Assembly (NCBI RefSeq): GCF_018224925.1
Contig: NZ_JAGTUF010000001.1
Coordinates: 124,001 to 188,000 of the forward strand
Length of the DNA stretch: 64,000 bases
From: Magnetospirillum sulfuroxidans
GTDB lineage: Bacteria; Pseudomonadota; Alphaproteobacteria; Rhodospirillales; Magnetospirillaceae
Direction: 5' to 3'
Both the position numbers and the translations under genes were made by a program. Shown here in pieces: positions 4,992 to 60,939 of this stretch; the first letter of the stretch is position 1, and each line of letters starts with the position of its first letter. Under the pieces are notes generated by a model. That model did not search any database. It was not told the origin of the DNA and saw only the letters and a list, made by a program, of their open reading frames with translations.

Positions 4992-6100
4992 CAACCGTTT
5001 CCTCCGATATAGTCGCGCAAATAGCGCCGGCTTAGGGCGGTCAGGACCTCATAGCCAATGGTGCCGGCCTCAAGCGCCAGTTGGTCGCAATCATGGTCGG
5101 GACCGATCAGTTCAAGCATGGCGCCGGCATGGACATGCTCGGGCGGCACGGCGGTGACGTCGAAAGTGGTCAAATCCATGGAGATGCGACCAACGACCGG
5201 CACTTTTATCCCTCCGATGACGCCAAATCCACGATTGCCCAATGACCGGAACAGGCCATCGGCATAACCGAAAGCGACAGTGGCCACGCGGCCTTTGCTC
5301 TTGAACCGATGGCTGGCACCATAGCCAACGGTCTGGGGGGTGTCAACGTCACGGACCTGGAGGATTCTGCTCGCCAGACGCAGGACCGGGCGCATGGGAT
5401 TGGGCTGGCCCGGCACCGGGTTAAGGCCGTAAAGGGCGGCGCCGGGGCGGATCAGATCGAAGTGGTAATCCGGCCCCAAGAAGATGGTCGAACTGGCCGC
5501 CAAAGAGCGCGGCGTCGACAGGGCCAAGGATTCGCTCATGCTTTGGAACGCGGCTAATTGTTCCGGGTTCTTGCCGTGTTCGGGTTCGTCGGCGCAGGCC
5601 ATGTGGCTCATGACCAGCATGGTGTCGATGCCCGCGAGGCGGCGGCGGTCATCGACCACCAGATCGATGGCGGCGCGGTCCAAGCCCAGCCGGTTCATGC
5701 CGGTATCCAGATGCAATGCCGCCGGCAGGGTCTTGGCCGCCGCTTGGGCGAAGCCCGACCACAGGCCGATCTGTTCAAGGCTGTTGAGCACCGGGATCAG
5801 GCCATGGCCGATGAAATCGGCGCCGGTTCCCGGCAGCACGCCGCCCAGCACCAAGATGCGGGCGTCGCCGACAATGGGGCGCAGGGCGATGCCTTCGTCG
5901 ATGGTGGCGACGAAGAAGGTCTTGCAGCCGGCTTGGCGCAAGCTGCGGGCGACGGCCGCCGCGCCCAAGCCATAGCCATCGGCCTTGACCACCCCGGCGG
6001 CCTCGGCGCCGGGGGCACGGGCAGCCAAGCGGCGCCAATTATCGGCGATGGCGTCAAGATCGATGGTCAGAATGCCGGTGGCGCGGTCATGGGCGGTCAT
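4991..6100 (-). CDS. alr: Alanine racemase
   Basis: A 369-residue PLP enzyme converting L- to D-alanine for peptidoglycan. Visible landmarks are the PLP lysine block VVKADGYGLGA near residue 36, the MNRLG motif, MSHMACADE, and the second catalytic tyrosine in QTVGYGASHRF. The reading frame is open to 6259, but the ATG at 6100 overlaps the dnaB stop (TGATG) and puts the PLP lysine at the usual distance from the start. The dnaB-alr pairing is common in bacteria; here mlaE and mlaF are added behind it. Confidence 0.95.
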   Translation of the reverse strand: MTAHDRATGILTIDLDAIADNWRRLAARAPGAEAAGVVKADGYGLGAAAVARSLRQAGCKTFFVATIDEGIALRPIVGDARILVLGGVLPGTGADFIGHGLIPVLNSLEQIGLWSGFAQAAAKTLPAALHLDTGMNRLGLDRAAIDLVVDDRRRLAGIDTMLVMSHMACADEPEHGKNPEQLAAFQSMSESLALSTPRSLAASSTIFLGPDYHFDLIRPGAALYGLNPVPGQPNPMRPVLRLASRILQVRDVDTPQTVGYGASHRFKSKGRVATVAFGYADGLFRSLGNRGFGVIGGIKVPVVGRISMDLTTFDVTAVPPEHVHAGAMLELIGPDHDCDQLALEAGTIGYEVLTALSRRYLRDYIGGNG

Positions 6101-7593
6101 CAGAACCCCGGTTCTTCGTAATGGTCGTCGGTCATCAGATTGCCGAACTTGGTGAATTCGCCATGGAAGGCCAGGCGGACGGTGCCGACCGGGCCGTGAC
6201 GCTGCTTGGCGATGATCACTTCGGCGGTGTTCCACACCTCTTCGCAGCGTTCCTGCCATTTGGCGTGACGTTCGTTGTATTTTTCCGGGGTTTCGTCCGG
6301 GCGCTGGCCCGGCTCGGCCCGTTCCAGGTAATATTGTTCGCGGAAGACGAACATGACGACGTCGGCGTCTTGTTCGATCGAGCCCGATTCACGCAGATCC
6401 GACAATTGCGGCCGCTTGTCCTCGCGTTGTTCCACCGCGCGCGACAACTGCGACAGGGCGATCACCGGCAAATCCAATTCCTTGGCCAGGGCCTTGAGGC
6501 CGCGGGTGATTTCCGAGACTTCCTGCACGCGGCTTTCCGCCGTCGCTCCCGACCCGCGCAGCAATTGCAGGTAATCGACGACGATCAGATGCAGGCCTTG
6601 CTGGCGCTTGAGCCGGCGGGCACGGGTGCGCACCGACGAGATGCTGAGGGCTGGGGTGTCGTCGATATGCAGCGGCAGGCGGTGCAGTTCCTGGGCGGCG
6701 ACCACCAGCTTCTCGAATTCGTCGTTGGACATCTCGCCTTGGCGGATCTTATGGCTTTGGATCTCGGCCGCTTCGGCCAAGATACGGGTGGCCAATTGTT
6801 CCGACGACATTTCCAGCGAGAAGAAGGCGACGACGCCGCCATCGGCGGCCTTCTTGTTGCCGAGCGCGTCCACTTCCTCGCGATAGGCCTTGGCGGCGTT
6901 ATAGGCGATGTTGGTGGCCAGCGAGGTTTTGCCCATGGACGGGCGGCCGGCCAGGATCAGCAAATCCGACGGATGCAGGCCGCCCAGTTTCTTGTCCAGA
7001 TCGATCAGGCCGGTGGGCACGCCCGACAGCTTGCCCTGGCGCTTATGCGCCGATTCGGCTTGCTTGACCGCCTCGACCAGCACTTGGCCGAAGGTCTCGA
7101 AGCCGCCTTCGGTCTGGCCGGTGGTGGCCAGTTCGTACAATTGCGCCTCGGCCCGGCCGATCTGGTCCATGGCCGGCTCGTCGATCTTGGGGGCGTGGGC
7201 CTGATTGACCATGGTCTCGCCCAGCTCGATCAATTCACGACGCAGATGCAGGTCGTGGATCAGCTTGGCGTAATCCTCGGCGTCGATGATCGACACCACC
7301 GCATTGGCCAATTGCGCCAGATACGGCGTGCCGCCCAATTCTTCCAGGCCGCCGTCATGCTGGAAATAGGTGGTCAGCGTCACCGGATTGGCGATCTGGC
7401 CGCGTTCGATCAGCTTGGCGCAAGCGGCGAAGACGCGGCCATGGGTGGGGTCGGCGAAATGTTCCGGCCGCAAATATTCCGACACCCGCTCAAAGGTGCG
7501 GTTGTTGAGCAAGATGGCGCCCAGCAGCGCCTGTTCCGCTTCGTAATTATGCGGCGGGGTGCGAAAGGTGGGAAGGTCTTCAGGGTTCGACAT
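6100..7593 (-). CDS. dnaB: Replicative DNA helicase DnaB
   Basis: A 497-residue protein of normal length. An N-terminal primase-interacting domain (starting near PPHNYEAEQALLGAILLN) is followed by the RecA-like hexameric helicase core with Walker A AGRPSMGKTSL near residue 217 and the motif HLIVVDYLQLL. DnaB unwinds DNA at the replication fork. No intein is present. It is the first gene of the dnaB-alr-mlaE-mlaF set; cfa lies 48 bp upstream in the same direction but is functionally unrelated. Confidence 0.97.
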   Translation of the reverse strand: MSNPEDLPTFRTPPHNYEAEQALLGAILLNNRTFERVSEYLRPEHFADPTHGRVFAACAKLIERGQIANPVTLTTYFQHDGGLEELGGTPYLAQLANAVVSIIDAEDYAKLIHDLHLRRELIELGETMVNQAHAPKIDEPAMDQIGRAEAQLYELATTGQTEGGFETFGQVLVEAVKQAESAHKRQGKLSGVPTGLIDLDKKLGGLHPSDLLILAGRPSMGKTSLATNIAYNAAKAYREEVDALGNKKAADGGVVAFFSLEMSSEQLATRILAEAAEIQSHKIRQGEMSNDEFEKLVVAAQELHRLPLHIDDTPALSISSVRTRARRLKRQQGLHLIVVDYLQLLRGSGATAESRVQEVSEITRGLKALAKELDLPVIALSQLSRAVEQREDKRPQLSDLRESGSIEQDADVVMFVFREQYYLERAEPGQRPDETPEKYNERHAKWQERCEEVWNTAEVIIAKQRHGPVGTVRLAFHGEFTKFGNLMTDDHYEEPGF

Positions 7594-36913: not shown

Positions 36914-37087
36914 TCAGGCGACCTGCTGGACCAATTCGGGCCGGGCGGGGGATTGGGTTTCCATGTGGACATGGAAGCAGCGTTGACACCACAACACCGG
37001 AGTCAGCTTGCGGTCACGGCTGACCCGATGGCGGGTGCGCTGGTCGCAGGCCGGGCAATGGTGAAATTCGTCGTTGGTTTCGGTCAT
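36914..37087 (-). CDS. Small zinc-ribbon protein, copy 2
   Basis: A 57-residue protein, MTETNDEFHHCPACDQRTRH..., with two Cys pairs, CPAC (11-14) and CQRC (34-37), flanked by His residues (HHCPAC, FHVHMET), consistent with one zinc ribbon. It is about 80% identical to the 58-residue product at 37171-37347, so this is a recent tandem duplication. Function unknown; zinc ribbons of this size often bind nucleic acid or protein. It lies on the strand opposite to maiA and ends 25 bp from it. Confidence 0.75.
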   Translation of the reverse strand: MTETNDEFHHCPACDQRTRHRVSRDRKLTPVLWCQRCFHVHMETQSPARPELVQQVA

Positions 37088-37170
37088 GGTCACGTCCTTG
37101 TCAGGTCGCGCACCCTATACTAAAAGCCATATATGTAAAGATTGTTTGTGAGGTATCGCAAACGGTGGAT

Positions 37171-37347
37171 TCAGGCCACCTGTTGGGCGGGAATCTCGGC
37201 CGGGGTGGGCGCGGTGGTTTCCATATGAACATGGAAGCAGCGCTGACACCACAGTACCGGGGCCAGTTTGCGGTCACGGCTGACCCGGTGGCGGGTGCGG
37301 TGGTCGCAGGCGGGGCAATGGTGGAATTCGTCGTGTTGTTCGGTCAT
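37171..37347 (-). CDS. Small zinc-ribbon protein, copy 1
   Basis: A 58-residue protein, MTEQHDEFHHCPACDHRTRH..., with the same CPAC/CQRC zinc ribbon as its neighbour; the copies differ mostly in the last 14 residues (METTAPTPAEIPAQQVA here). The 83-bp gap between the copies contains an AT-rich stretch (tatactaaaagccatatatgtaaag) that could be a separate promoter. It lies downstream of the NHLP-like peptide gene, separated by a strong hairpin at 37413. Confidence 0.75.
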   Translation of the reverse strand: MTEQHDEFHHCPACDHRTRHRVSRDRKLAPVLWCQRCFHVHMETTAPTPAEIPAQQVA

Positions 37348-37412
37348 GGCGGTCCCTTTGTCGCGGGACAGATACTCATAAAGCCATGGCAAGGCAAGGG
37401 AAGGTAATATGA

Positions 37413-37442
37413 CATCCCCCCGGACCGATGTCCGGGGGGATG
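37413..37442 (-). terminator. Terminator after the NHLP-like peptide gene
   Basis: A perfect 13-bp stem, catccccccggac (37413-37425) / gtccggggggatg (37430-37442), with loop CGAT, 7 bp beyond the stop. On the minus strand TCATATTACC follows. It probably limits the peptide transcript to one gene. Confidence 0.8.
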
Positions 37443-37448
37443 GGCAGG

Positions 37449-37784
37449 TTACTTCGCCGGCTTCTTCGGCATGCTTTTTTCGTCGAAAAGGACGAAGGAA
37501 CTGAATGAGATCCCACCCGAGGCGAGGTCGAGCAGTTCGTCGGGCAGTTCCGAGGCGTCAAGGGCGGCGGGCAGGACGATGACCGCTTCACCCGGCTGTT
37601 CCTCGATCACGGTGATCTTCAGGGCGGGAACCGGATCGGTGCCGAGCAATTGCTTCAGCGCCGCATGCGGATTGTCCTTGAGCAAGGTGCGGAAGGTTGC
37701 GTCGGATTGCGCCCGCTCGGTCAGCAGCTTCTCGGCGTGACGGCGAACTTCGGCCAAGGGGTTTTCAGTCGTCATCGAGTTCAT
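37449..37784 (-). CDS. NHLP-leader RiPP precursor peptide (candidate)
   Basis: A 111-residue peptide. Residues 8-91 match the layout of nitrile-hydratase-like leader peptides: an N-terminal helix, DATFRTLLKDNPHAALKQLLG (29-48), a beta segment PALKITVIEEQPGEAVIVLP (53-72) and the leader end ELPDELLDLASGG (79-91) with a double-glycine cleavage site. The candidate core (92-111) is ISFSSFVLFD-EKSMPKKPAK, hydrophobic then Lys-rich (K103, K107, K108, K111). No Cys or Thr for lanthionine or azole chemistry; two or three Ser are present. A second start at M4 (37775) is possible. A divergent two-domain GNAT gene shares the promoter region. Confidence 0.75.
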   Translation of the reverse strand: MNSMTTENPLAEVRRHAEKLLTERAQSDATFRTLLKDNPHAALKQLLGTDPVPALKITVIEEQPGEAVIVLPAALDASELPDELLDLASGGISFSSFVLFDEKSMPKKPAK

Positions 37785-37885
37785 GTCTCCAGTTTAAAGA
37801 TGCCGAGCCCATCGGGTATTGACCCTATTCCCAGCAATTCATTCCCTTCGCCACCGTATTTGTATTTTTTGATTTGGCGACAACT

Positions 37886-37901
37886 TTGATGTCAACATCA
37901 A
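37886..37901. promoter_or_regulatory. Palindrome in the peptide/GNAT divergent region
   Basis: TTGATGT-CA-ACATCAA, a perfect 7-bp inverted repeat. It resembles an FNR box (TTGAT...ATCAA), but the spacer is 6 rather than 4 bases. A minus-strand TTGACA (37890-37895) lies inside it, a possible -35 for the peptide gene. Confidence 0.5.
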
Positions 37902-37946
37902 CGGACATTGATAGGTGGCGCCAGTCTCTTCCCCCTTGAACCGATG

Positions 37947-37958
37947 ATTGTTAACAAT
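37947..37958. promoter_or_regulatory. Second palindrome in the peptide/GNAT divergent region
   Basis: ATTGTTAACAAT, a perfect 12-bp palindrome, 34 bp ahead of the GNAT start. Confidence 0.45.
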
Positions 37959-37991
37959 GGTCGCTCTTGCCGCGACACAAGGGGCTTATCC

Positions 37992-38906
37992 ATGGGATTA
38001 AGGGTCAGCGAAGCCACCCGCGATCAGGCCGCCGCCTTGGCCGGATTGACCTGGGGCGCTTATGCTCCGCTGCTGTCTTGGTCCGAGGACGAAAAACGGC
38101 GTTCGCGCGCCGTCAGCCTCGCCGTCTGGGCCGGCACTGTTCCGGTGGGACTGAGCGTCAGCGTGAAAGGGGCGGGGGGTGGCCAAAACCTGTTGTCGCT
38201 GACGGTGGCGCCGGCGTGGCGGCGCCGTGGTGTCGGCCGGCTGATGCTGCGCGCCACCACCGAAACGCTGATCCGACGGGGTGGGGTGACGGCGCTGGAA
38301 GCCTGTTTTTCCGATCGTCTGCCCGGCTTTGACGGCTTTACCGCCTTATTGGCGGCGGAAGGCTGGCAAACCCCGGAACCGACCAGCCATCGCATTTGCG
38401 GCCCGGTGCGCGAGACCTTTTCCGTTTTCCGTCATCGTGCCGGCATCATCGAACGGCTGAACCGCGAGGGCTTTCGCATTCTGACCTGGGCCGAGGCGGG
38501 GATGGCGGCCTTGGCCAAGGTGGCCGAATTGGAAGCGACGGGGGAAGCGCCGGCCTGGGCCAGTCCTCGGCATTGGCTGGAAAAATTGCACCCCGAGGCG
38601 TCCATGGTGCTGGTCGATGCCGATGGGGACGTGCGCGGCTGGGTGGTTTGTCAGCACCAAGCGGCGATGAACCGCTGGTATTTTCCGGTCGGCTGGGTGC
38701 GCCAGCCCCAGGCAAGCCGGGGCTGGTTGCTCGGCGCTTATGCCGAAGGGGCGCGCCGTCTGGGGGAACGCCATGGCCAAGACACCCGGGTGGTGGTGGA
38801 AAGCGGCGCCGGCCAACCCGACATGGTGCGGGTGCTGGAACGCCATTTCCGCCCCCATGCCGATTGGGCCGACCGGCTGATGGTGTCGTGGCGGAAGCTA
38901 GGCTAG
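37992..38906 (+). CDS. Two-domain GNAT acyltransferase, candidate RiPP maturase
   Basis: A 304-residue protein. The first GNAT domain (residues 1-150) carries the acyl-CoA motif LTVAPAWRRRGVGRLMLRA near residue 71; the second half (150-304) looks like a second GNAT fold with a degenerate motif (VGWVRQPQASRGWLLGAYAEGARRLG). It has an AAGGGG ribosome site. Family knowledge: GNAT enzymes acylate amines, and some with NHLP-leader partners attach fatty acids to Lys/Orn side chains of RiPPs (selidamides). Divergent pairing with the NHLP-like peptide suggests such a role; this is inference. Its stop shares CTAG with the convergent RND gene. Confidence 0.75.
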   Translation: MGLRVSEATRDQAAALAGLTWGAYAPLLSWSEDEKRRSRAVSLAVWAGTVPVGLSVSVKGAGGGQNLLSLTVAPAWRRRGVGRLMLRATTETLIRRGGVTALEACFSDRLPGFDGFTALLAAEGWQTPEPTSHRICGPVRETFSVFRHRAGIIERLNREGFRILTWAEAGMAALAKVAELEATGEAPAWASPRHWLEKLHPEASMVLVDADGDVRGWVVCQHQAAMNRWYFPVGWVRQPQASRGWLLGAYAEGARRLGERHGQDTRVVVESGAGQPDMVRVLERHFRPHADWADRLMVSWRKLG

Positions 38907-41900
38907 GCTTTTCCGCCCAGGCGGGCGCGCAGGCGCTCGAACCACAAATACAGCACCGGGGTGATATAAAGGGTCAGCGCTTGGCTGACCACCAGACCGC
39001 CGACCACCGCAAGACCCAGCGGTTGCCGCAATTCGGCGGCGGCGCCGTGGCCCAGCGCAATGGGCAGCGTCCCCATGATGGCGGCCATGGTCGTCATCAT
39101 AATCGGCCTAAAGCGCAGCAAACAGGCTTGGCGGATGGCTTCGTGCGCCGGCAGGCCCTGGTGGCGCTGCGCCTCAAGGGCGAAGTCGATCATCATGATG
39201 GCGTTTTTCTTGACGATGCCGATCAGCATCAAGATGCCGATCATGGCGATCACCGACAATTCCTGGCGGAACAGCATCAGGGTGGCCAAGGCGCCCACCG
39301 CCGCTGACGGCAGGCCGGACAAGATGGTCACCGGGTGAATCAGGCTTTCGTACAACACCCCCAAGATGACGTAGATGACCACCACGGCGGCCAGCAGCAA
39401 GATGCCCTGGTTGCCCAGCGATTGCTGGAACACCTTGGCGGTGCCGGCGAAGCTGGAGGTGATGCCGGCCGGCATGCCCATTTCCGTCTGGATCGCCTTG
39501 ATGCGGTCGGCGGCCTGGCCCAGCGCCACCCCCGGCGCCAGATTAAAGGCGATGGTGACGGCGGGAAGCTGGCTTTGGTGGTTGATGGTCAGCGGCCCGA
39601 CGGTGCGGCCGATTTCCGCCACCGCGTCCAACGGCACCAGCGGCCCTTCGGTCGAGCGCACCTTGAGCTTGGCCAAAGCCGACAGATCGGCCTGGAAACG
39701 CGGGTCCATCTCCAAGATCACCGCGTAATCGGCGATGGTGGCGTAGATGGTGGAAATCTCGCGCGAGCCATAGGCGGAATACAGGGCGCTGCGCACGTCT
39801 TCCAGGCGCACGCCCAGGGCGGCGGCCTTGTCGCGGTTGACCGCCACCAGGGCTTGCGGGCTTTTGACCTGCAAATCGCTGGTGACGTCCTGGACGCTGG
39901 GTTCCGTCGCCATGCGGGTGGTCAGCTGGTCGGCAAAGGCATAAAGCTCGGCCTGATTGATGCCCTCAAGCGTGTATTGATATTGGCTTTTCGACGACCG
40001 TCCGCCCAGGTTCAGGGTCTGGATCGGGGTGATGAAGACGTTGATGCCAGGGCGTCCGCCGGTCTTTTTGCGTAATTGCTGGATCACCTGCTCGACCGGC
40101 GGGCGTTGGTCGCGGCCGACCAGATTGATGAACATGCGCCCCGAATTGGCGGCATTGGACAGGCCAGACACCCCAACCGCCGAGGTGACGGTGGCGATAT
40201 AGGGATCGGCCTGGACGATGGCGGCAACCCGCTGATGCTCCTCGGCCATGGCGGCAAAGGAAATATCTTGGGCCGCTTCGGTCTGCAAGAAGATCTGGCC
40301 GGTATCCTCGGTCGGGAAAAAGCCCTTGGGCACTTCGCGGAACAGCCACACCGTGGCCAGCACGGTGACGATGCCCAGGGCCAGCATGGACAGGCCATGG
40401 GCCAGCACCCAATCCAAGCTGCGCTGATAGAATGCCTGCACGGCGTTAAAGCCGTGTTCCAGCGCTTTTTCCAACCGGCCGGCCTGGCTGTCGTGTTCCG
40501 GGCGCAGCCAACGGGCGCACATCACCGGGGTAAGCGTCAGCGACACCAGGCCGGAAATGCCGATGGCCAGGGTCACCACCACGGCGAATTCATGGAACAT
40601 GCGGCCGATGACCCCGCCCATTAGCAAGATGGGGATGAACACGGCGACCAGCGACACGGTGATGGAGATGATGGTGAAGCCGATTTCGCGCGCGCCCTTG
40701 ATGGCGGCGTCGAATGGCTTCATCCCCTCGTCGACGTGGCGTTGGATGTTTTCCAGCATGACGATGGCGTCATCGACCACCAGCCCCACCGACAAGGTCA
40801 GGCCCAACAGCGAAATGTTGTCGAGGGAAAAGCCCAACAGCGACATCGCCCCCAAGGTGGCGATCAGCGACACCGGCATGGCGATGGCCGGAATGAGCGT
40901 GGCCGAGAGGCGGCGCAGGAACAGGAAAATGACCAGGACCACCAGGGCGATGGTGATGGCGAAGGTGAATTGAACATCGACGATGGCGTCGCGGATCGAG
41001 CGCGAGCGGTCGTTCATCACCTGGACATCGACGGTGGGCGGCAGACTATCCTTGATGGTCGGCATCAGGGCGCGGACATCATCGACCACCTGAACGGTGT
41101 TGGCCTCGGGTTGGCGTTGGACCGCCAAGACGATGGCGCGGGTGCCGTTGAACCAACTGGCGGTGCGGTTGTTTTCCACCGAATCAAGGATGGTGGCGAC
41201 ATCGCGCAGCCGCACAGGGGCGCCGTCGCGCCAGGCCACCACCAATTGGGCAAAGGCGGCGGCATCGGGCAATTGGGCGTTGGATTGCAGGGTCAGTTGC
41301 TGCTTGGGGCCGTTCAGCACCCCCAGCGGCGAGTTGGAATTGGCCGCCTTGATCGCCGCGCTCAGTTCATCGACGCCGATATTGCGCGATGCCAGGGCGT
41401 CCGGGTTCATTTGGACGCGCACGGCGAATTTCTGGCTGCCATAGACCAGCACCTGGGCGACGCCGGACAGACGCGACAGGCGCGGCAGCAAGATGGTCTG
41501 GGCGTAATCGTCCAAGGTGGCCAGCGGCGTGGTCGGCGATGACAGGGCCAGCAGCACCACCGGCGAATCCGATGGGTTGACCTTGCGGAAGGACGGCGGG
41601 GTGGTCATTTCCTCGGGCAGCCGGCGTTGGGCTCGGGTAATCGCCGCCTGCACATCTTGGGCGGCGCCGTCGATAGCGCGATCAAGCACGAATTGCAGGG
41701 TGATCGAGGTGGTGCCCTGGCCAGAGGCCGAGGTGATGGTCTCCAGCCCGGCGATGGTGGAAAATTCCCGTTCCAGCGGCGCCGCCACCGACGACGCCAT
41801 GGTGTCGGGGCTGGCCCCAGGCAGCGACGCGCTGACGCTGATGGTGGGGAAATCGACGTTGGGCAACGACGCCACCGGCAATTGCCGCCAGCCGACCAGA

Positions 41901-43732: not shown

Positions 43733-44524
43733 TTATGCCCGGGCGAAGATGCCGTTGCGCGATTGATGGCTGATCGGTCCCATTTGGATCAGCTTCAGCC
43801 CGGCGCGGCCAAGGATCGCGACGATGGTGGCGTTGCGGGGGGTGTCCTCGGCATCCATCTCCACCAGCAAGGACTGGAAGGACGGAGCCGCCAGGGTGGC
43901 CAGCGCCCCTTCCAGGATATCGGGCTCGATGCCATCGACATCCAGCTTGATATGGGTGGGGGCGGGGGCGCCGGAACTGCGGATGAAATCATCGACGGTG
44001 ACGCACAGCACCGATTGGCGGAACGGCGCTTCGGCCCCGACCGAATGCATCACGCTGCCGGGATTGGTCGAGGCCATGGCCAGATAGTCGATGCCGTTCT
44101 TGCCGGCCACTGCCAGCGGCAGCGCCGAAATGTGGTCATCAAGGCGGTTGATGCGGACATTCTCGGACAAGGCGGCAAAGGAAGCCGGCGCCGGTTCGAA
44201 TGCCCAGACCGTGGCGCCGCGCCGCGCCGCGTAGAGCGCATAGGCGCCGACATTGGCGCCGATATCCCACAGGACCGAATCGGCTGAAAGCTGGTCCAGC
44301 CACGTGATGGTGTCGGGTTCGCGCGTCAGCAGGCTGGACGGATAGTCCAGCGCCTGCGGATGGGTGCTGAGAAAATGGACCGGCCCGGCATTGGTCTGAA
44401 CGCTATGGCGGCGCTGTAACAGGTTGGAAACCCGCAGCAAAGTGTTGGCTTGGCGCATGGGACGCTGCCAGCACGTCAGGGCGCTCGCCAGTCCAGCGAT
44501 AGCTTTGGCGAAAGTCTTGCTCAT
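43733..44524 (-). CDS. FkbM-family methyltransferase
   Basis: A 263-residue SAM methyltransferase of the FkbM type: the SAM motif LWDIGANVGAYALYAARRG near residue 100, the acidic AFEPAPASFA and the late IKLDVDGIEPDILEGA block are all characteristic. FkbM enzymes O-methylate sugars or polyketides; the substrate here is unknown. The ATG at 44524 follows a GAGGGG site; the upstream open frame has no such signal. Not linked to a glycan cluster in this window. Confidence 0.85.
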   Translation of the reverse strand: MSKTFAKAIAGLASALTCWQRPMRQANTLLRVSNLLQRRHSVQTNAGPVHFLSTHPQALDYPSSLLTREPDTITWLDQLSADSVLWDIGANVGAYALYAARRGATVWAFEPAPASFAALSENVRINRLDDHISALPLAVAGKNGIDYLAMASTNPGSVMHSVGAEAPFRQSVLCVTVDDFIRSSGAPAPTHIKLDVDGIEPDILEGALATLAAPSFQSLLVEMDAEDTPRNATIVAILGRAGLKLIQMGPISHQSRNGIFARA

Positions 44525-44869
44525 TGATCCCCTCGGGGCTTGGCGGAAAAACGCTCCCCGCATTACGCGCCGGGGATGTCTTTTGCTTTGATCGTGTCCG
44601 GAGCAGTTCATAGCGAATGGGCGGGGATGGCACAATCAGAACTTCGGCCTCGGCCGGTTCACGCTTCCCGTCCCTTGGTTTTAGCCCTTGGGCCGCTTCC
44701 TGGTTCTGCCGATCATTGTGGCCTCATGAGACGGGGGGCGGGCGAAGCAAGCTGTGCACGCAATTTGTGCAAAATATGACGGTTTCGGCCATGTTTAAAC
44801 CGCTTGCATGGGCGTCATGCAGGCAGTACGGTCTTGGCTAACATTTGGTGGGGTAAAGGAAACCGTAAG
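44525..44869. other. 345-bp divergent region
   Basis: Between the FkbM and GGDEF genes. It holds TGCAC-N7-GTGCA (44755-44771), a short inverted repeat that may be an operator, and otherwise no gene or clear promoter. Confidence 0.4.
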
Positions 44870-55409: not shown

Positions 55410-55532
55410 AATTTTTCCAAAGCAAATTCAATGTGTTAGCGGCTGTCCCGCTGTAGGCCATAAACTGACCTGATGATTTTGCGCGACAATTGCGCGACAC
55501 TCAGGGCGAAAAAGTGTCGCGTGAGGCGCTCA

Positions 55533-56030
55533 ATGGCTACGATCTCGGAACGGTATAATCGCGAAGGCCAGTTGATCGGTTGGCAGGTGAAAATTCGCAA
55601 GCGCGGATATCCTGCCATGGTCAAAACCTTCGAACGGAAGAACGACGCTCAGGCCTGGGCGACCATCAAGGAATCGGAGATGGTTCGGGCGGTCTTCGTT
55701 GATCGTTCCAAGGCTGAACGCACCACTTTTCGCGATGCTGTTGAGGCATACATCACCAACACCGCCCCCACTCACAAAGGGGGACGAGATGAAATCCTGC
55801 GACTTCAAAAATTCCTGCGGGACGAGGTCAGACTTGCAGCGCACGCACTTGCAACGCTGACAACCAGGTTGTTCGAGGAATATCGGGATCGGCGGTTAAA
55901 CGAGGTCGCCGCCAGCACGGTTAAGCGCGAACTTGGTCTTTTGCATGCGGTCATTGAAACCGTCCGTAAAAGCCATGGGATGATTGAAAATCCCGTTTCC
56001 GACGTTCGCCGCCCCAGTGTCCGCGATGCA
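55533..56030 (+). pseudogene. Truncated tyrosine-type integrase
   Basis: About 166 codons from MATISERYNREGQLIGWQVKIRKRGYP: the N-terminal arm and the core-binding SAM-like domain (FLRDEVRLAAHALATLTTRLFEEYRDRRLNEVAASTVKRELGLLHAVIETVRKSHGMIENPVSDVRRPS) of a tRNA-targeting phage-type integrase. The catalytic domain with R-H-R-Y is missing: the frame runs at about 56030 into a transposase remnant. Its position behind tRNA-Arg marks an old integrated element. Confidence 0.85.
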
Positions 56031-56035
56031 CGAGA

Positions 56036-56353
56036 TATGCCGTCAGCCTGCGCATCCGCAAGCGCATCGAAGAGGTCTTCGGCTGGGCCAAGACCACCGG
56101 CGGCCTGCGCAAGACGCGCCACAAAGGCACCGATCGTGTGGACTGGATATTCACCCTGACCGTCGCTGCATACAATCTCGTCAGGCTGCCAAAACTGATG
56201 ACGGTGGCCTGATGACGCCCGGACTCCGCCTCGAACCGGCGGAACCCGCGAAAATCGGCCGCTCTCGCGGACCGTAACCCTCGCCGACGCCGCTGAAAGC
56301 TTCGGACCGACGGGGAAAGGGGGCGCGAACACGCCTTTTTCCGCACCCTGTTA
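56036..56353 (+). mobile_element. 3' remnant of an IS5-family insertion sequence
   Basis: In a different frame from the integrase, 56036-56212 encodes the C-terminus of an IS5-type transposase (YAVSLRIRKRIEEVFGWAKT..., ending AAYNLVRLPKL-MTVA), including the Glu of the DDE set in RKRIEEVFGWAKT. After the stop, about 140 bp run to the probable right end, CCTTTTTCCGCACCCTGTTA (56334-56353). The 5' part and left end are gone, so a deletion joined the integrase to the IS. Confidence 0.8.
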
Positions 56354-57094
56354 AACCGGTTCCCAGGTGCTTAGTTCTCCAGCATTCACTTTTGACCGAA
56401 AGAGGTCGAACAGTCCGAGGCCGTCGAGTTTCGCGATTTCCTCGAAGCCGAGTAGGAAATCATATCCGTCGAAATTTATGCCCTGCATGACCTCGCCGTA
56501 GACCTCTGCGAAAGGCTCTTCGAAAGCCTTTCGCAGTTGGTTCGAAGTGTCCGTCCAGCCGTTGATGCCGTTGTGGTATCCCTGCTGCCGGTTCTGAACG
56601 CATCGGGTTAGGTCGGCGGAAAACCAAATCTTGCAGGCGACTGGCCGGAGCGCATAGATGCGGCATTCACCCCCCACGCCAAGGTGCGGGCATTGGACAA
56701 GATCCTTTGTCCGCCGAGCCTCTGAGGCGGCCCATCGTGCGCGGTCAGGGAGCCCTGCGTCCGCCCTCTTGATCTCTTCGTAATGCTCAATGATGGTGAT
56801 GGCGTCGAGCATGCTCATCGAGAAGCTCCCCGAGGTGACGCCACGCGCTTCCGATGGGATCAGGCAGCAGGCGTGGCAGCCACGCACGCAGGCGATTTCG
56901 ACCTTCTGGGAGACGGCCTCGTAGGCCAGGTCTGAGATGGCGTTGCCGATGTCCTGATGAATGCGGGCGACCTGGACCAAGGCGCGGTAAGAACCATCTG
57001 CCCGCGATATCCCAGCCAATCGGCGCCGGGCTTCCCCCATCAGTGACTGGACGGCGTCATTGGCCAGCAGGTCATAGGGCGCTTCCGTTCCCAT
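56351..57094 (-). CDS. YkgJ-like cysteine-cluster protein, probably 3'-truncated
   Basis: A 247-residue protein with the Cys cluster CVRGCHACC, CPHLGVGGECRIYALRPVACKIWF of YkgJ (zinc/iron-chelate-binding) proteins. The start at MGTEAPYDLL (57094) follows AAGGAC; a TTG at 57160 is also in frame. Its stop codon TAA lies in the last bases of the IS right end (TTA on the plus strand), so the native C-terminus was probably cut off by the insertion. Function unknown. Confidence 0.7.
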   Translation of the reverse strand: MGTEAPYDLLANDAVQSLMGEARRRLAGISRADGSYRALVQVARIHQDIGNAISDLAYEAVSQKVEIACVRGCHACCLIPSEARGVTSGSFSMSMLDAITIIEHYEEIKRADAGLPDRARWAASEARRTKDLVQCPHLGVGGECRIYALRPVACKIWFSADLTRCVQNRQQGYHNGINGWTDTSNQLRKAFEEPFAEVYGEVMQGINFDGYDFLLGFEEIAKLDGLGLFDLFRSKVNAGELSTWEPV

Positions 57095-57204
57095 GTCGTC
57101 CTTCTCATTTGAGCCATGGCCATTCTTCTGCTTGTCGACAGAGGGGAGATAGGCGGGCAAGGGCTCTCTTCAGGAATGGCACAAAATCTGGTTTCTTAAG
57201 CGGC

Positions 57205-57238
57205 TCAGCCCGCCGCACGGATAGGTGCGGCGGGCTGA
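57205..57238. terminator. Bidirectional-looking hairpin between nrdJ and the YkgJ-like gene
   Basis: A perfect 14-bp stem, tcagcccgccgcac / gtgcggcgggctga, with a 6-base loop, 78 bp past the nrdJ stop. No long T-run follows on either strand (TGCTTCGTTTC on plus). Confidence 0.65.
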
Positions 57239-57315
57239 TGCTTCGTTTCAGGTCACGCTATGGCTCGTTTTGGCGGAACTATCCTGCCAGTCATACATAA
57301 CAATTTGGTTCGGCG

Positions 57316-60300
57316 TCACGAGCAACCGGTGGTGCCGCCGCAGGTGTCGCACTTGAGGCAGGTGCCGTTGCGCACCAAGGTGAAATTGCCGCATTCGGGG
57401 CAGGCGTCGCCTTCATAGCCCTTCATGCGCGCCTTCTTGATTTCCTCGGCGCGGGCGTCGAATTGCTGGATGGCGGTTTCCGGGTCCACCGACAACGCCA
57501 CCTGGGTGGTGGTCATGGTCGATCCGGCGATGTCCGCTGACAGCGAGGCGGCGTTGCCGCCGGCCACCACCAGGAATTTGGAACGGACATAGCCCTTGGA
57601 GGTGACGCGTTCCACCACTGCCGCGGCCTTTTCCAACTGACCTTCGATATTGCCGCGTCCCACCGTGTCGGGGGCCAGATCGGCCGGTTCCACATGGGCC
57701 AGATCGTTGCGCGACAGATAGGAAATGGCCAGTTCGCGGAAGATGTAATCCAGGATCGAGGTGGCCATCTTGATGGTGTCGTTGCCCTGCACCGGACCTT
57801 GCGGTTCAAAGCGGGTGAAGGTGAAGGCCTCGACGAATTCTTCCAGCGGCACGCCGTATTGCAGGCCGATGGAAATGGCGATGGCGAAGTTGTTCATCAT
57901 GGCGCGGAAAGCGGCGCCTTCCTTATGCATGTCGATGAAGATCTCGCCGACCTTGCCGTCTTCGTATTCGCCGGTGCGCAGATAGACCTTGTGGCCGCCG
58001 ACCATGGCCTTTTGCGTATAGCCCTTGCGACGGTCGGGCAGCTTGGCGCGGCGTGCGGCGACGATGCGTTCGACGATGCGTTCGGCGACGATTTCGGCTC
58101 GGGCCGCCATGGGGGCGGCGGCGATTTCTTCTTCCAAGGCGCCGGCATCGTCCAGCAATGCCGCCTGCAACGGCTGGCTTAGTTTCGAGCCATCGCGATA
58201 CAGCGCATTGGCCTTCAGACCCAGGCGCCACGACAGCATATAGGCGTTCTTGCAATCATCAACGCTGGCCGAATTGGGCATGTTGATGGTCTTGGAAATC
58301 GCCCCCGAGATGAACGGCTGCGCCGCCGCCATCATATGGATGTGGCTTTCCGCCGACAGGAAACGCTTGCCGACCTTGCCGCACGGACTGGCGCAATCGA
58401 ACACCGGCAGGTGCGCGTCCTTGAGGAAGGGCGCGCCTTCCAAGGTCATGGCGCCGGTGCAATAGGTGTTGGCGGCGTCGATTTCGGCCTTGGCGAAGCC
58501 CAGATGGGCCAGCAGGTCGAAGGACAGGTCATCCAGCTTGGAGCGGCTGATCTTCAGCACCTCGGTGCAGAATTCCTCGCCCAGGGTGTATTTGTTGAAG
58601 ACGAACTTGATGTCGAAGGCGGCTTCCAGCGATTGCTCGATCTTTTCCAGCACCTCGTCGGTGAAGCCCTTGGCCCGCAGCTTGTCGTGATCAATGCCCG
58701 GCGCGTCGCGAAGGGTGGCGTGACCGACCGCATAGCGGATGATCTCGGCGACGTCGCTTTCCGAATAGCCCAGATTGCGCAGGGCTTCGGGAACCATGCG
58801 GTTGATGATCTTGAAATAACCGCCGCCGGCCAGCTTCTTGAACTTGACCAAGGCGAAATCGGGTTCGATGCCGGTGGTGTCGCAATCCATCACCAGACCG
58901 ATGGTGCCGGTCGGCGCGATGACCGTGGATTGGGCGTTGCGATAGCCGTTCTTTTCCCCCAGGGTCAAGGCATTGTCCCAGGCCAGCCGGGCCGAGGCGA
59001 CCAGGGCGGCGTCGGGGCAATTATCGGCATCCAGCGGCACCGGGCTGATGTCGAGGCCTTCATAGCCCGAGGTCAGGCCATAGGCGGCACGGCGATGGTT
59101 GCGCATGACCCGCAGCATGTGGGCGGAATTGGCGGCGTAACCGGGGAAGGCCCCCTGTTCACCGGCCATTTCGGCCGAGGTGACATAGGATTCGCCGGTC
59201 ATCAACGCGGTGATGGCGCCGGTCAACGCCCGGCCCTGCTGGCTGTCATAAGGCAGGCCCGAGGCCATCAGCAAACCGCCGATATTGGCGAACCCCAGAC
59301 CCAAGGTGCGGAATTCATAGGAGAGCTGGGCGATCTTTTCCGACGGGAACTGCGCCATCAGCACCGAGATTTCCAACACCATGGTCCACAGCCGGCAGGC
59401 GTGGCGGAAGCCGTCAACGTCAAAGGTGCCGTCCTGGCGGCGGAAACACAGCAGGTTCAAGGACGCCAGATTGCAGGCGGTATCGTCCAGGAACATGTAT
59501 TCCGAACACGGATTGGAGGCGTTGATCCGGCCCGATTCCGGGCAGGTGTGCCAGTCGTTGATGGTGGTGTCGAATTGGATGCCCGGATCGGCGCAAGCCC
59601 AGGCGGCTTCACCGATGCGGTCCCACAAATCGCGGGCCTTGAGGTCTTTCTTCACCTTGTCGGAATTGCGATGCTTGAGCACCCATTCCCGGTCGTCGAT
59701 GACGGCGTTGAGGAAGTCGTCGGTGACGCGCACGGTGTTGTTGGAATTCTGCCCCGACACGGTCAGATAGGCTTCGGAATCCCAGTCGGTGTTGAACACC
59801 GGGAACTCGATGTCGAAATAACCCTGGCGGGCGAACTGGATCATGCGCTGGACATAGTTTTCCGGGATCATCACGCCGCGGGCGCCGATGATCGCTTTTT
59901 TCAAGCGCTTGTTCAGCTTGGGATCGAAACGGGCTTGGGATTCGGCGTCGCCGTCCCATTCGCGCATGGAGGCCATGACTTCGCCCAGGTGCTTTTGCGC
60001 CAGCTTCGAACCGGCGACCAGGGCGGCGACCTTTTGCTCTTCGACCACTTTCCAGTTGATGAAGGCTTCGATATCGGGGTGATCGACATCGACCACCACC
60101 ATCTTGGCGGCGCGCCGCGTGGTGCCGCCCGACTTGATGGCGCCGGCGGCGCGGTCACCGATCTTCAAGAAACTCATCAGCCCCGACGATTTGCCGCCGC
60201 CGGACAGGCGCTCGCCTTCGCCGCGCAGCTTGGAAAAATTGGTGCCGGTGCCCGAGCCATATTTGAACAAGCGGGCTTCGCGCACCCACAAATCCATGAT

Positions 60301-60939
60301 CCCGCCTTCGTTGACCAGATCGTCTTCGATGGACTGGATGAAGCAGGCATGCGGCTGCGGATGCTCATAGGACGATTTGGACCGGGTCATCTTGCCGGTC
60401 TTGTAATCGACGTAATAGTGACCCTGGCTGGGGCCATCAATGCCATAAGCCCAATGCAGGCCGGTGTTGAACCATTGCGGCGAGTTGGGCGCGCCCATCT
60501 GGCTGGCCAACATGAAGGCCATTTCGTCGCGGAAGGTCAGCGCGTCGTCTTCGGACGAAAAATAGCCGCCCTTCCAGCCCCAATAGGTCCAGGTGCCGGC
60601 CAGGCGGTCAAAGACCTGGGCGGCGCTGGTTTCGCCGCTGACCCGCTGTTCGGCCGGCAGCGCCTTGAGCGCCTCGGCATCGGGTTCGTGACGTTGCAGC
60701 CACTCGGGCACGCCCTTTTCGGCGACACGCTTCAACCGGGCGGGGATACCAGCCTTGCGGAAATATTTCTGCGCCAGAACGTCGCAGGCGACCTGCGACC
60801 ATTTGGTCGGCACGTCGATATCCTTGGCTTGGAACACCACCGAACCGTCGGGATTGCGAATCTCGCTGGTCGCCTTGCGGAAGTCGATGCCCGCGTAACG
60901 GGACGAGCCGGACTTGGTGAAGTGACGCTGAACGCGCAT
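57316..60939 (-). CDS. nrdJ: Adenosylcobalamin-dependent ribonucleotide reductase
   Basis: A 1207-residue class II reductase of the large alphaproteobacterial form. The active-site finger-loop region includes [22 protein letters not shown], the second substrate-binding cysteine region is intact, and the C-terminus has a Cys-rich zinc motif ([28 protein letters not shown]) that re-reduces the active site. It makes deoxynucleotides with or without oxygen. No cobalamin riboswitch is seen in its leader; a palindrome upstream may bind NrdR. No other nrd gene is nearby. Confidence 0.96.

Follow-up and report, generated by a model that had tools for sequence, protein, structure and literature searches.

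The window, the 64,000-nucleotide stretch of DNA analyzed here (positions 124001-188000 of contig C11 of its own genome, G000), encodes an NHLP-leader RiPP precursor and, divergently from it, a GNAT enzyme modeled as two GNAT folds in one chain. This pairing is conserved across several genera, the two genes are present or absent as one unit at their genomic site, and the gap between them carries a palindrome shared with a second locus of the same genome, where exporter genes are found. We lean, with moderate confidence, toward the reading that the two genes make up a minimal, lanthionine-free, selidamide-like cassette, in which the GNAT would acylate residue K108 of the precursor, cleavage after a GG site and export would be supplied in trans, and both loci would be under joint control through the palindrome.

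The precursor gene and the divergent GNAT gene

The preliminary description of this DNA had read a 111-residue peptide as carrying an NHLP-type leader. The open reading frame is present, and its translation matches TIGR03793 (E 9.7e-12) over profile positions 2-77 of 77, although its 44.6 bits fall below the curated cut-off of 50.9 bits, which is an annotation threshold and no biological feature; a relative encoded at locus L089 scores 51.0 bits. The end of the profile falls at the GG of residues 90-91, after which cleavage by a C39 peptidase would be expected. In an alignment with 12 peptides from Shinella, Rhizobium and Pannonibacter that are 45-58% identical to the window precursor, the leader is conserved and the core variable, and the Shinella relative with 57.8% identity carries an NHLP annotation. 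The metal ligands of nitrile hydratase alpha are Cys residues, and there is no Cys anywhere in the 111-residue precursor. The ligands are thus absent, as the definition of the NHLP leader family asks, the metal-binding residues of nitrile hydratase alpha being missing from that family (PMC2887384; this and the other papers are cited for portions of their text). A GC-rich hairpin just 3' of the gene may serve as a terminator or mRNA stabilizer.

The divergent gene, separated from the precursor gene by a gap of 207 bp, had been described as encoding a two-domain GNAT. Pfam Acetyltransf_1 (25.4 bits, cut-off 20.7) covers only residues 45-104 of the product, and the second domain emerges from an AlphaFold2 model (mean pLDDT 91.2, pTM 0.81) that aligns over its entire length with tandem GNATs in a structure search. 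Among these are 2wpx, a tandem GNAT of the clavulanic acid pathway (Z 18.3, 276 aligned, rmsd 4.3), and 7q3a (MAB_4324; Z 18.8, 271 aligned, rmsd 5.0), and such matches to metabolite tandem GNATs speak for the fold only. The putative acyl-CoA P-loop, RRRGVG, fits the published pattern [Q/R]xxGx[G/A] (PMC13060382), with R77 invariant and G80 nearly invariant in our GNAT alignment (A3). We found no clear second copy in the C-terminal domain, and NpuN likewise has the pattern without a clear C-terminal copy (PMC13060382, section 11). With two GNAT folds in one modeled chain and the P-loop in the N-terminal domain, the enzyme is, by its model, a tandem GNAT.

Table 1. Positions of the cassette, its parts and the related locus on contig C2. 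Positions are those of the window except where a locus is named.
Feature	Position	Strand	Basis
Whole cassette	37358..38918	.	Absent at the orthologous site in 11/12 congeners; boundaries good to ~10-15 bp
13-bp GC-rich hairpin, just 3' of precursor gene	37413..37442	(-)	56-nt fold of -33.4 kcal/mol, z -4.51
NHLP-leader RiPP precursor gene, 111 aa	37449..37784	(-)	TIGR03793 match; relatives with similar leader
Core ISFSSFVLFDEKSMPKKPAK, residues 92-111, 20 aa	37452..37511	(-)	FSxF motif and C-terminal KPAK
Codon of Lys108, predicted acyl acceptor	37461..37463	(-)	Inferred; sole Lys position common to 7 window-type cores
Leader, residues 1-91, end DELLDLASGG	37512..37784	(-)	Profile end and alignment
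ATCAACGGACATTGA, holding palindrome TCAAY-N4-RTTGA	37897..37911	.	Within NHLP-GNAT gap
Tandem-domain GNAT, 304 aa, putative maturase	37992..38906	(+)	Pfam Acetyltransf_1, AlphaFold2 model, structural matches
Acyl-CoA P-loop RRRGVG, residues 77-82, N-terminal GNAT domain	38220..38237	(+)	Alignment, published pattern
Second RiPP locus, contig C2	L017 8433-19901		Radical SAM, GNAT, NHLP precursor and NHLM exporter genes

Lanthipeptide, radical-SAM and azole enzymes had been called absent, and we found no lanthionine synthetase, radical-SAM or YcaO protein among the 14 neighboring window proteins scanned with Pfam. No arginase or hydroxylase was seen among the window neighbors scanned, no exporter adjoins the pair, and no sigma-70 promoter was found at 37100-39000. 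The flanking zinc-ribbon and RND efflux genes lie 80-262 bp apart in 11 of 12 congeners and ~1.56 kb apart in the window, and the window-type pair occurs in one of the 13 genomes of the genus sample. Given the near-empty site in these 11 congeners, we conclude that the two genes were gained or lost together. The twelfth congener (G003) has an unrelated 451-residue ORF at the same place (L142 1938-3293; no PHROG match), and the site may therefore be a recurrent insertion point. The composition of the cassette is not atypical (GC of 0.627, versus 0.621 for the window), and a phage origin was rejected, as neither the peptide nor the GNAT matches a PHROG.

Next to the cassette, the zinc-ribbon gene is duplicated in tandem (36936-37089 and 37196-37349, 84% identical over 154 bp); the congeners compared seem to be single-copy for this gene, since both window copies match one congener stretch. 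Farther away, an FkbM-type methyltransferase gene (43736-44635), ~5 kb from the cassette, is probably unrelated, and a short integrase-like ORF and a 1207-residue ORF at 55473-60939, noted by visual inspection of the listed ORFs, may be signs of a mobile element.

Recurrence of the pair and a common core type

We searched for the pair from both of its sides. On the precursor side, an alignment of 13 NHLP peptides (threshold E<=1e-8) was searched against 397 genomes from the order of Rhizobium sp. RU36D (G061). Seven genomes matched, and in all seven a GNAT of the same family lies beside the NHLP gene. Two of these, G061 and G062, had seeded the profile, and the five unseeded genomes are G702, G739, G779, G799 and G812, with G779 close kin of G062. 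On a Shinella plasmid, a GNAT gene whose product is 40.4% identical to the window enzyme is followed by the NHLP gene of the 57.8% identical relative. Of 398 genomes sampled across the phylum, two matched, namely the genome studied here and G1179 (E 3.1e-7).

The enzyme-side searches, which took in 61 relatives, 385 genomes of the class and a plasmid collection, returned 11 non-window loci with two-domain matches (contig C2 of the same genome, G003, G033, G027, G032, G438, G266, G413, Shinella and two Ensifer plasmids). Each of the 11 has C39 and/or ABC genes of the NHLM type no more than 10 kb from the GNAT, although G266 and G413 showed just an ABC gene, ~8-9 kb off. Seven of the 11 also showed an NHLP- or Nif11-like peptide. 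In the class-wide search, where absence is weak evidence with at most six candidates scored per genome, G356 and G175 matched over ~100 N-terminal residues only and have no C39/ABC genes nearby. Three more divergent GNATs retrieved only Ensifer, Shinella and Azospirillum records by tblastn against plasmids. No lanthionine synthetase is annotated in the Azospirillum locus, which has C39 and ABC genes, or in the Shinella locus, whose gene table is possibly incomplete.

For control we considered weaker NHLP types, beside which this GNAT was found in none of six genomes (one stretch each, from six of the seven non-own genomes matched, with G223 left out) and in none of three plasmid loci (L056-L058). 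Counter to this control, the NHLPs of C2, G003 and G027 are likewise of another type and do have this GNAT nearby. The functional pairing put forward in the preliminary description is nevertheless supported by the same pair in several genera, and it is kept beyond close relatives, in the five unseeded genomes and on the Shinella plasmid. A chance neighborhood was rejected on this recurrence together with the joint presence or absence at the congener site.

Trees of the two partners agree in their deepest division. That of the GNATs places the window enzyme with Hyphomicrobiales NHLP-locus enzymes in a group of 12 rows (99/99 support), every one of them from an NHLP locus; the C2 GNAT of its own genome is left outside, and the branching within the group does not single out a nearest partner. 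The leader tree is divided likewise (100/100), with the window and Hyphomicrobiales rows on one side and the C2 peptide on the other, and sets the window peptide beside those of Shinella, G702, G739, G799 and G812 with moderate support (80/88). A clustering of the GNAT with unrelated metabolite acetyltransferases, named earlier as an outcome that would speak against the pairing, was not seen, the trees being without metabolite GNATs and the GNAT tree holding enzymes of RiPP-type loci only.

Two gene arrangements at these loci were also observed. On an Ensifer plasmid, a GNAT of 582 residues, extended by a long additional N-terminal region (L054 9044-10792), is encoded near Nif11 peptides, two of them with FSxF cores. 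At L089, the C39/ABC genes are separated from the GNAT/NHLP pair by a gene (5063-7237) for a SulP-type transporter with fused STAS and cyclic-nucleotide-binding domains (domains scanned in L089 only), and similar ORFs are found in L090-L092.

The seven window-type cores (window, Shinella, G739, G799, G702 and two in G812) have the form xxFS[AS]F...KP(A/R)(K/R) and end in KPAK, KPAR or KPRR. Their lengths vary (17-20 residues), and the Lys that they share is therefore fixed counting from the C-terminus: it is the fourth residue from that end in all seven, and the cores of Shinella and G799 have no other Lys. Of the four core Lys residues in the window (103, 107, 108 and 111), the shared one is K108. 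The acceptor had been given as K103 or K107/108, and this comparison of sequences narrows it to K108 as the predicted site, whereas K103 and K107 are not common to the seven. The FS[AST]F motif extends to 13 collected cores, comprising the 7 window-type cores, 4 NHLP cores (RU36D and Pannonibacter) and 2 Nif11-led cores (Ensifer). Its occurrence under both leaders points to one core type with two leader families, although many other cores in GNAT genomes, those of G438 among them, lack FSxF.

Lys is present in 30 of 33 chosen cores, where composition predicts 13-17, and this test is descriptive because the core set was chosen by the author. The set was picked by hand, includes several cores whose loci have no GNAT next to them, and counts the L022 and L093 cores separately although they are nearly identical. 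Omitted were L002 30-431 and L093 8856-9206 (no recognized boundary), L002 839-1066, the NHLPs of L056-L058, L095, L096, L156 and L157, and the Ensifer peptides L054 10907-11212 and L055 7447-7752. The three Lys-free cores belong to Nif11 peptides of G438, and a fourth G438 core, also Lys-free, brings the count to 30 of 34. Thus in G438, where four Nif11-like peptides (L031 7864-9121 and 15495-15902) are encoded next to a GNAT of this family, every core is without Lys, which contradicts Lys as a universal acceptor near such enzymes. Each of these four cores has one Cys in a short context (PTQC, PVSC, PINC and PTQC), which hints at another acceptor or partner enzyme.

A second locus with exporter genes and a shared palindrome

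An NHLM export system is encoded in the same genome, outside the window on contig C2, where TIGR03796 (973.4 bits, cut-off 853.3), TIGR03797 (793.2, cut-off 709.4) and TIGR03794 (296.9, cut-off 156.2) all match. The NHLP gene of this locus scores 54.5 bits against TIGR03793 and encodes the core VMMTPQPKVSKLHLGG, and the radical-SAM gene has a B12-binding-like part. The GNAT of the window had been called the only adjacent enzyme; this is correct locally, but elsewhere the genome has this second GNAT/NHLP pair with radical-SAM and NHLM exporter genes. NHLP precursors that do not lie near their modification genes have already been reported (PMC2887384). A C39 domain was also found at the L089 locus.

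The palindrome was first noticed by eye in the window and C2 loci. Its stricter form, ATCAACGGNCATTGA, has exactly three copies in the 4.13-Mb genome, one in the NHLP-GNAT gap of the window and two between the NHLP and HlyD genes of C2, and with up to two mismatches it gives 28 matches versus 2 for the reversed control. The looser form, TCAAY-N4-RTTGA, adds a C2 site 67 bp before the radical-SAM gene. It also occurs at three sites in the G003 locus, one of them again 67 bp before a radical-SAM gene, and at one site each in L022 and L093. The C2 locus (L017) has three looser-form matches versus 0.03 expected, a number reached in 0 of 200 shuffles. Taken alone, the single palindrome of the window falls short of significance (a copy turns up in 16 of 100 shuffles), and the motif is missing from 18 of the 23 stretches scanned. 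The shared motif seems to tie the window pair to the exporter locus, and such a link between an orphan cassette and an exporter from a different contig may offer a way to connect scattered NHLP precursors with distant export loci.

A hybrid kinase and a response regulator are encoded beside GNAT/NHLP genes in RU36D, Pannonibacter, G779 and G003, and homologues of this two-component pair are found in the genome studied here at 77-81 kb of C11. The regulator homologue is 69% identical (339.5 bits, versus 162.6 for the next), and the kinase homologue scores 654.6 bits. The C11 response regulator is a candidate for binding the palindrome; the RU36D stretch has the two-component pair and no palindrome match.

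Proposed pathway, rival readings and known systems

In the pathway that we propose, the NHLP leader would recruit the tandem GNAT, which would take an acyl group from CoA, most likely a fatty acyl of medium or long chain, and move it onto the side chain of a core Lys, most probably K108 in the C-terminal KP(A/R)(K/R). The NHLM machine from C2 (C39 peptidase, ABC and HlyD) would then cut the modified precursor after GG and export it. The window and C2 loci would probably be switched on together via TCAAY-N4-RTTGA, and the switch is plausibly the two-component system with relatives beside the same genes in other genomes. Leader-guided acyl transfer to K108 is suggested by analogy with two enzymes: NpuN, whose model is that of a tandem GNAT, works on a Nif11-led precursor and acylates its Lys1, for which Lys3 and Lys24 cannot substitute (PMC13060382, section 9), and PhaN acts on an NHLP-led peptide (PMC9505594). 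The preference of NpuN speaks against carrying the analogy over unchanged, the predicted acceptor here being the fourth residue from the C-terminus and not position 1. The window GNAT is likened to these enzymes and to KspN by their descriptions, not their sequences; structures of NpuN, PhaN and KspN do not appear among the structural matches listed, an observation that carries no weight. Our confidence in the selidamide-like reading was slightly lowered by the fourth Lys-free core of G438. If the reading is true, one leader and one enzyme would suffice for a ribosomal lipopeptide, which would be attractive for engineering, and the choice of Lys by tandem GNATs would be directly testable on seven natural cores with a single common Lys.

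No sequence feature separates acetyl from fatty-acyl transfer. It is possible, although unlikely, that the GNAT acetylates, adding two carbons to a Lys or to the new N-terminus left by leader removal, as GodH does on goadsporin (PMC10373908), and most solved folds among the matches listed are acetyl-CoA enzymes by title. However, one listed match, 9emp, is a histidine acetyltransferase solved with N-myristoyl histidine, and so the tandem GNAT fold can hold a fatty acyl. Acylation of the N-terminus would need cytosolic cleavage, whereas the GG site and the C39-type exporters point to cleavage on export, and the constant position of one Lys in 7/7 window-type cores also argues against this alternative. 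We consider it very unlikely that the acceptor is instead the Ser of FSxF, by O-acylation, with the Lys-rich end serving for membrane or exporter contact. The FS[AST]F motif common to the 13 cores under both leaders would suit such a role, as would the four Lys-free G438 cores made beside the same GNAT family, but the side-chain acylation precedents reported for this enzyme type, in the portions of the literature cited here, are Lys/Orn N-acylations, and many other cores in GNAT genomes, G438 again included, are without FSxF.

The GNAT could also be a mere genomic neighbor, a self-immunity or housekeeping acetyltransferase acting on the product or on another metabolite. Natural-product GNATs can serve self-resistance (PMC13060382), and the fold alone resembles many metabolite tandem GNATs, yet we regard this as improbable, given that the GNAT and leader trees have a common deep split, that both genes are jointly present or absent at the cassette site, and that the GNAT recurs by NHLP or Nif11 genes in several genera. 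The lack of an adjacent exporter and the single occurrence in the genus sample might instead mark the cassette as a relic, its precursor and enzyme intact and its export lost. Against this, neither ORF is disrupted, the motif of the core has been conserved, the GC content is like that of the window, the palindrome is present and exporter genes lie elsewhere in the genome, and we give the relic very little credence indeed.

Returning to the selidamide-like reading, the named selidamides (phaeornamide, kamptornamide and nostolysamides) resemble the window pair in their NHLP- or Nif11-led precursor, GG-type site and GNAT maturase, and their peptidase-ABC export is what we infer for the window pair via C2 (PMC9505594, PMC13060382). 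An NHLP or Nif11 precursor encoded with a GNAT, which characterizes selidamides, is what the window holds. It differs from them in having no lanthionine synthetase, arginase or hydroxylase among the neighbors scanned and in having its exporter genes elsewhere in the genome, and acylation is here a prediction. GNATs with an NHLP/Nif11 precursor and no lanthionine synthetase are already known, as are NHLP precursors distant from modification genes (PMC13060382, PMC2887384). In the NpuN-related GNAT clusters (network cluster 1), an NHLP/Nif11 precursor is accompanied by an ABC transporter in most cases and not always by a lanthionine synthetase; the cited portions of that paper describe no loci, core motif, site or regulation of the window kind, and the pair may be in its supplementary figures (PMC13060382). 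We found no earlier description of the FSxF/KPAK core type, the cassette behavior or the shared palindrome in the portions of papers cited, which is no proof that none has been published.

Two further systems bear comparison. All three transport families and an NHLP gene of the NHLP/NHLM export system (TIGR03793, 03794, 03796 and 03797; PMC2887384) are present in the genome, and the window pair departs from that system in its missing adjacent transporter. PflA/PflB, which occur with a HEXXH enzyme and an MNIO-nitroreductase, likewise combine an NHLP precursor with a GNAT; unlike what we propose for the window, PflB had no activity on full-length peptides, and neither a strongly conserved Lys nor a typical double-Gly site was observed there, according to the cited portions of PMC12636437.

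As a broader and quite doubtful extension, the cores may belong to a family of linear, singly modified lipopeptides (xxFS[AST]F... with a Lys close to the C-terminus), carried by mobile two-gene cassettes that join the NHLM regulon of the host and acting as secreted signals sensed by the hybrid histidine kinase with relatives next to these GNAT/NHLP genes. The conserved unit would then be the core together with its GNAT and would not include the leader, because the same core occurs under two leader families.
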